34,401 bases of DNA, from the NCBI GenBank assembly GCA_001512885.1, contig LFSZ01000116.1:1-34401 (forward strand), in the 5' to 3' direction. Position 1 is the first letter of the stretch; every line of letters begins with the position of its first letter. Below are positions 13,991 through 33,944 of this stretch, in pieces. The notes beneath the pieces are model-generated. The model was given only the letters and a program-made list of their open reading frames with translations, did not search any database and had not been told where the DNA came from. Origin of the DNA: Rikenellaceae bacterium DTU001 (GTDB lineage: Bacteria > Bacteroidota > Bacteroidia > Bacteroidales > DTU049). The translations under genes and the position numbers were made by a program.

Positions 13991-14287
13991 GGTTCTATAA
14001 CGTTTATTGTGGGTAAAAACATTTTAGATTATTACAAAAAATAACCATTTTTTAATTATTTAGGCTAATTTTTTTACCACAAAGGGCACCAAGTTATTAC
14101 ACAAAGTTCACAAAGTGCCATTTATAACCCTTTTAATTCCATCTTTCTTTGTGTTCTTGGTGCCTTCTTTGAGAACTTTGTGGTTAATATTTAACTGTCC
14201 AATAATAAACAAACCAATATTAACAAATTTATTTTTGTAAAATTAGTTTTTTTTTAAATCTTTACCCATATAAAACGTTATAGAACC
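13991..14287. mobile_element. MITE-like element, copy 1
   Basis: A 297-base non-coding unit between the permease and the AsmA gene. The ends are 27-base inverted repeats that match at 24 positions and share the exact first 15 bases (GGTTCTATAACGTTT). Flanking bases 13983-13990 (GATCATAA) and 14288-14295 (GATTATAA) agree at 7 of 8 positions, as expected for an aged 8-base target duplication. Inside are repeated CACAAAG words on both strands that form an imperfect dyad (about 14079-14190). It encodes no protein. The GG start and 8-base duplication resemble ISL3-family ends, but that assignment is an inference. A decayed inverted copy lies at 33705-33944. Confidence 0.75.
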
Positions 14288-33704: not shown

Positions 33705-33944
33705 GGTTCTATAACGTTTTACATGTATAAAGATTAAAAAGAGTTGATTTTTAATATTGGTTTATTTATTATTAGACAGTTATATATCAACCACAAAGTT
33801 CTCAAAGAAGGCACAAAGAACACAGAAAAGTATGGAATTAAAAGGGCTACAAATGGGACTTTGTGATAAAAAAAATAGCCTAAATAATTAAAAAATTGTT
33901 ATTTTTTTGTAACAATCTAAAATTTGATTGCCCAAATTATAACC
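33705..33944. mobile_element. MITE-like element, copy 2 (decayed, inverted)
   Basis: The reverse complement of this stretch aligns with the element at 13991-14287 over nearly its whole length. The GGTTCTATAACGTTTTA end is intact at 33705. The other end has shrunk to GGTTATAATTTGGG (complement of bases up to 33944). About 30 bases between CACAAAG words are missing relative to copy 1, as is part of the stretch near the intact end. No 8-base target duplication is visible here. Copies 1 and 2 form inverted repeats about 19.4 kb apart. Confidence 0.7.

Follow-up and report, generated by a model that had tools for sequence, protein, structure and literature searches.

The analysed stretch of DNA (the window, 34,401 nucleotides) carries a 297-bp miniature inverted-repeat transposable element (MITE) that, with a probability of roughly 0.82, descends from a passenger transposon. 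According to this reading, a carrier of a GxxExxY gene bounded by IS1595-type ends was reduced to a MITE by deletion, was amplified, and later became part of a composite element.

Results

Anatomy of the element

The coordinates of the features are collected in Table 1. Re-measurement of the element (13991-14287) confirmed the values given in the earlier note, namely 27-nt inverted ends that are complementary at 24 of 27 positions, with the first 15 identical, and flanks that agree at 7/8 bases. The element is short, contains no transposase and has terminal inverted repeats, as is characteristic of MITEs. Its segment 14018-14055 was missing in the MITEs of about 230 bp from congeners and in the gene-carrying elements of 579 bp described below. 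Folded as single-stranded RNA, the element formed one long hairpin (-76.1 kcal/mol, z = -8.1). An Rfam search of the window returned a tRNA alone, the hairpin matching no described RNA family, and a scan for promoters and terminators around the element gave no signal above chance. The earlier statement that the element carries no ORF was right for complete ORFs and wrong for the minus strand of 14108-14146, which is the 3′ end of a fossil GxxExxY gene.

Table 1. Features of the MITE and of the truncated IS1595-family element in the window.
Feature	Position	Strand	Basis or remark
Left 8-bp target duplication GATCATAA	13983..13990	.	Size of 8 backed by flank statistics
Left terminal inverted repeat GGTTCTATAACGTTTATTGTGGGTAAA	13991..14017	+	Matches transposase-5′ end of full-length elements
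Stretch present in longer MITE copies of the own genome	14018..14055	+	Sequence comparison
Hairpin arm 1 (ACCACAAAGGGCACCAAG...CACAAAGTTCACAAAG)	14076..14118	+	Equals repeat at 3′ end of GxxExxY gene in intact elements
Fossil GxxExxY gene 3′ end, AAAGATGGAATTAAAAGGGTTATAAATGGCACTTTGTGA, encoding KDGIKRVINGTL and stop	14108..14146	-	Equals C-terminus of the 126-aa L240/L343 protein
Deletion junction TTCCATCTTT	14137..14146	+	Overlap of two alignment blocks to intact element
Hairpin arm 2 (CTTTGTGTTCTTGGTGCCTTCTTTGAGAACTTTGTGGTTAA)	14147..14187	+	Equals repeat 5′ of GxxExxY gene in intact elements
Right terminal inverted repeat (GGTTCTATAACGTTTTATATGGGTAAA on minus strand)	14261..14287	-	Matches transposase-3′ end of full-length elements
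Right target duplication GATTATAA	14288..14295	.	7/8 versus left copy
Right MITE-like module of truncated composite IS1595-family element	33705..33939	-	Terminal inverted repeat 33705-33719
IS1595-family transposase, C-terminal part, cut by contig end	34016..34366	-	97% identical to complete copies

Copies, target duplications and distribution

The own genome (G000; 1.9 Mb in 117 contigs) was compared with the congeners G001, G002, G003 and G004 and with further genomes, most of the genomes compared being fragmented drafts. Further copies, which the earlier note proposed to look for, were abundant, with 50 places matching the element in G000. The 15-base end, allowing at most 2 mismatches, gave 101 matches there (51+50) against 19 (8+11) for the reversed control. 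One copy (C70:14081-14377) differed from the window element by a single base and lay at another site within a perfect 8-bp duplication of its own (TTCTTTAG), which implies recent movement. Among the 25 MITE-size copies of G000, 12 showed at least 7/8 flank identity at a length of 8, whereas 0.6 were expected from pairing the flanks of different copies, and no comparable peak was seen at other lengths. In a set of 74 non-redundant elements from the own genome, the congeners and the sequence collection, 8/8 duplications were found in 21 (0.23 expected) and 7/8 duplications in 13 (2.6 expected). The element had been proposed to be a MITE, and its multiple copies, its 8-bp duplications and the ends that it has in common with transposase elements bear this out.

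The insertion sites were AT-rich, and the ORF interruption test revealed no insertion with clear gene disruption. The comparison gave no formal empty site, because the genes flanking the window element were not adjacent in the congeners; next to the MFS homologues of the congeners, the upstream stretch was free of the element. Neither outcome that the earlier note had named as refuting its reading, a lack of further copies or presence at one locus in all relatives, occurred. The end was present in four of the five congeners searched, G003 being without it, and a scan of the collection located it scattered in several other Bacteroidota or related metagenome assemblies. Across a sample of 395 other genomes of the phylum a stricter end pattern had no match, and no match to the end was found in viral contigs.

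A GxxExxY gene remnant in the interior of the MITE

The interior of the MITE is not transposase sequence, and in most distant genomes the matches were confined to the hairpin arms. Two nearly identical elements of 579 bp, L240:309-887 in G002 and L343:1420-1998 in G004, share the ends and both arms of the MITE, and a gene lies between these arms. Both 126-aa products belong to GxxExxY / PDDEXK_3 (PD-(D/E)XK), the family profile (TIGR04256 / PF13366) scoring above cut-off for both variants of the passenger protein. The protein ends in ...LLKDGIKRVINGTL, and the window MITE retains both arms together with the last 12 GxxExxY codons and the stop. Weighing against the reading preferred here, neither gene-carrying element has a clean 8-bp duplication (4/8 and 5/8); the L343 element has 7 identical bases immediately on either side. 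Nor was a GxxExxY gene found in G000 or G001, which leaves the parent to be reconstructed from congeners.

Local alignment of the MITE with the intact element gave two blocks, 76-156 and 147-297, which overlap by 10 bases. The overlap corresponds to a direct repeat, TTCCATCTTTT / TTCCATTTTTT (10/11), whose copies lie at 96 and 442 in the intact G002 element; the latter copy covers the GxxExxY start codon. Removal of the inter-repeat segment from the G004 element left 233 bp, and the MITEs of the congeners (229-232 bp) aligned with this product from end to end at 84-87%. Two deletion classes were recognised. The 75 classified elements comprised 38 of class I, 6 of class II, 2 carrying the gene, 7 carrying a transposase, 20 with a partial match and 2 others, and the breakpoints of the class II MITEs (L302, L309, L251 and L286) lie near 131 and 434.

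Composite elements built from MITE-like modules

The earlier note expected the genome to contain a full-length element that shares these ends, and four were found in G000 (L059, L060, L061 and L063; 1487-1573 bp). In these elements MITE-like modules of the same orientation lie on both sides of a transposase core, the left one corresponding approximately to MITE positions 1-229 and the right one to 20-297. The copies have common junctions, which suggests that the composite was probably formed once. Only one of the four complete composites, L061, is flanked by an 8/8 duplication, from which the composite appears to move as a unit.

A classical origin was considered as an alternative, in which the MITE arose by internal deletion of a full-length IS1595-family insertion sequence or by solo-LTR-like recombination of the composite modules. 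Recombination between modules lying directly oriented on either side of the transposase would indeed give a MITE. Modules within one element were also more alike than modules of different elements, the observed value being reached in 4 of 120 permutations, and this likeness may hint at exchange between the modules of one composite; the breakpoint markers do pass from left-like to right-like sites, but descent explains this equally well. Against such an origin, the congener MITEs match the size of 230 bp predicted from the gene-carrying element, and the flanks of the same-ended transposase element of G001 lack hairpin arms of this kind. Moreover, both composite modules already hold the class I GxxExxY remnant, which makes the composite younger than the deletion. 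We therefore regard the classical origin as improbable, although some MITEs of G000 may be secondary solo products. Descent of the MITE from a full-length insertion sequence, the parent sought in the earlier note, is not supported; its interior derives from a same-ended element with a GxxExxY gene.

GxxExxY loci and other passengers

Five elements combine inverted-repeat ends and a passenger with the lack of a transposase of the element, namely the two GxxExxY carriers described above and three others. L247:1674-2595 (922 bp) has a different GxxExxY gene inside the MITE ends and an 8/8 duplication. L241:347-2702 (2356 bp), bounded by the MITE ends and an 8/8 duplication (TTAAATAT), carries the gene of a 558-aa repeat protein with a secretion-system (T9SS) C-terminal sorting domain, and could offer a route for the spread of secreted proteins. 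L307:5217-5933 (717 bp) holds a Y1 (IS200-like) transposase gene between palindromes inside IS1595-type ends, one of which is more divergent, and GAAAATTT flanks it on both sides. All three resemble mobile insertion cassettes that would belong to an IS1595-type system. Bacteroidales Gx485_bin136 also has small elements (L276, L287 and L303) whose ends are related and which contain REP-like palindromes, L287:3303-3467 having an 8/8 duplication.

Among 24 placeable GxxExxY loci from 8 Bacteroidales genomes, some of them cut by contig ends, the flanking inverted repeats beat all 60 shuffles, which preserve base composition only, in 15. Many of these repeats are built of CACAAAG, CACAGAG, CACTAAG or similar words, and two further GxxExxY loci (L343 and L345) have GGTTCTATAAC ends as flanks. 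Tentatively, the GxxExxY genes flanked by repeats of the CACAAAG/CACAGAG type might form a mobile cassette of Bacteroidota in their own right, so far undescribed, which enters transposons of the IS1595 type; the arms would then be its functional ends or nuclease targets and not incidental repeats. In other Bacteroidales families (G023, G030, G033 and G057; L338-L362), GxxExxY genes were seen between long inverted repeats, which at L346 are about 50 bp and nearly perfect; the G023, G030, G033 and G057 loci are without IS1595-type ends. Near the start of the contig, the window also has a four-helix bundle gene of the 23S rRNA intervening sequence type (199-573; TIGR02436), beside which no ACAAAG repeats were seen.

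That GxxExxY genes of other genera also lie between inverted repeats of like style, as though these repeats were targets or belonged to a cassette, agrees with the idea that a palindromic MITE existed first and received the gene in its loop, so that the MITE would be the ancestral form. The gene-less MITEs, in contrast, hold the last 12 codons and the stop of this very gene, and the class II copies retain more of it at both ends, namely sequence from its opening codons and a longer 3′ stretch, which indicates two independent losses of the gene. This makes deletion, and not gene insertion, the likely direction, and leaves insertion into a MITE very improbable.

The probable partner transposase

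The frames of the four full-length elements (333-343 aa) include complete transposase ORFs and encode IS1595-family transposases with the zinc ribbon of the family. The transposase domain scored 123-128 bits with NF033547 (cut-off 75) and 35-41 bits with PF12762 (gathering 27), and the N-terminal zinc ribbon scored 54 bits with NF050000 (cut-off 28). G001 has another IS1595-family transposase, with about 51% identity, within the element L232:566-2017 (1452 bp); this element shows the two MITE ends, left/right asymmetry included, and an 8/8 duplication (ATTTAATT). The ends start with GG and the duplication is of about 8 bp and A/T-rich (8/8 in both L232 and L061), as in the IS1595 family. Relatives of the transposase on plasmids were all below 60% identity.

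ISL3 elements likewise make 8-bp duplications and have GG ends, features with which the guess of the earlier note was compatible, but the transposases between the MITE ends match IS1595 models (NF033547, PF12762) and no ISL3 model in Pfam and NCBIfam, so that an ISL3-family MITE is contradicted by every full-length element examined and has next to no probability.

Because of the shared ends and the duplications, the MITE ends are probably recognised in trans by IS1595-family transposases, as judged from sequence. It is uncertain which of the transposases serves the MITE, since many transposase cores of G000 lack MITE ends altogether. Ten such loci (L192-L197, L201, L202, L204 and L205, on contigs C13, C93, C82, C45, C3, C41, C116, C107, C69 and C1) have cores about 97% identical to that of the composite, with common endpoints and unrelated flanks. 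Their boundaries, TTAATAAATGTTTAAG / CATATATTAG, form a weak inverted repeat, and the GGTTCTATAAC ends are absent. Seven copies of cores without MITE ends gave no convincing signal of a target duplication, and similar core-only copies occur across the genus.

Discussion

Bacterial MITEs are usually viewed as shrunken insertion sequences. For the passenger-transposon origin preferred here, the starting point would be a same-ended mobile insertion cassette that an ancestor of the Bacteroidales genus studied here possessed, its GxxExxY gene enclosed by a pair of inverted ACAAAG-type repeats. Slippage or recombination between the short direct repeats, one of which overlaps the start codon, would have deleted about 346 bp, sparing the ends, the two inverted repeats and the final 12 codons. 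This shortened form would then have been amplified, with IS1595-family transposases presumably acting in trans on the MITE ends and inserting the copies into AT-rich intergenic sites with 8-bp duplications. Later, in the G000 lineage, two MITEs in direct orientation would have come to flank a transposase core, giving the 1.5-kb composite.

ISApl4 is an IS1595-family element with GG ends and A/T-rich 8-bp duplications (PMC12561309, citing Siguier et al. 2009). The system described here is like it in transposase family, ends, duplications, high copy number and many intergenic insertions, and differs in the end sequence (GGGGCTGTACTAGA in ISApl4, GGTTCTATAACGTTT here) and in comprising non-autonomous forms, both gene-carrying and miniature, as well as a composite whose MITE modules lie in direct orientation. 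Mobile insertion cassettes, as in PMC3913671 and PMC6542083, are likewise bounded by inverted repeats, carry a passenger gene and no transposase, and are presumably moved in trans; the elements here differ in having IS1595-type ends and Bacteroidota passengers, namely GxxExxY, a T9SS-sorted protein and a Y1 transposase. MITECca01 of Cardinium (PMC9769881) is also a high-copy Bacteroidota MITE, of about 240 bp, with sister MITEs at different stages of deletion. It belongs to the IS982 family and derives from the insertion sequence itself, whereas the fossil gene here is a passenger and not a transposase. The Tn3-derived TIMEs (PMC4133298) are miniature elements that also form mosaic non-autonomous cargo transposons; unlike the element studied here, they belong to the Tn3 family, make 5-6-bp duplications and are usually single copy.

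The present case would represent a different route to a MITE, one that can be read stepwise from an intact gene transposon through two independent deletions of the passenger gene and amplification to a composite that reunites the MITE with a transposase. The case further ties GxxExxY, a nearly unstudied nuclease-like family named by two papers in the literature searched, to inverted repeats and a transposon, which makes the mobility of these genes testable.
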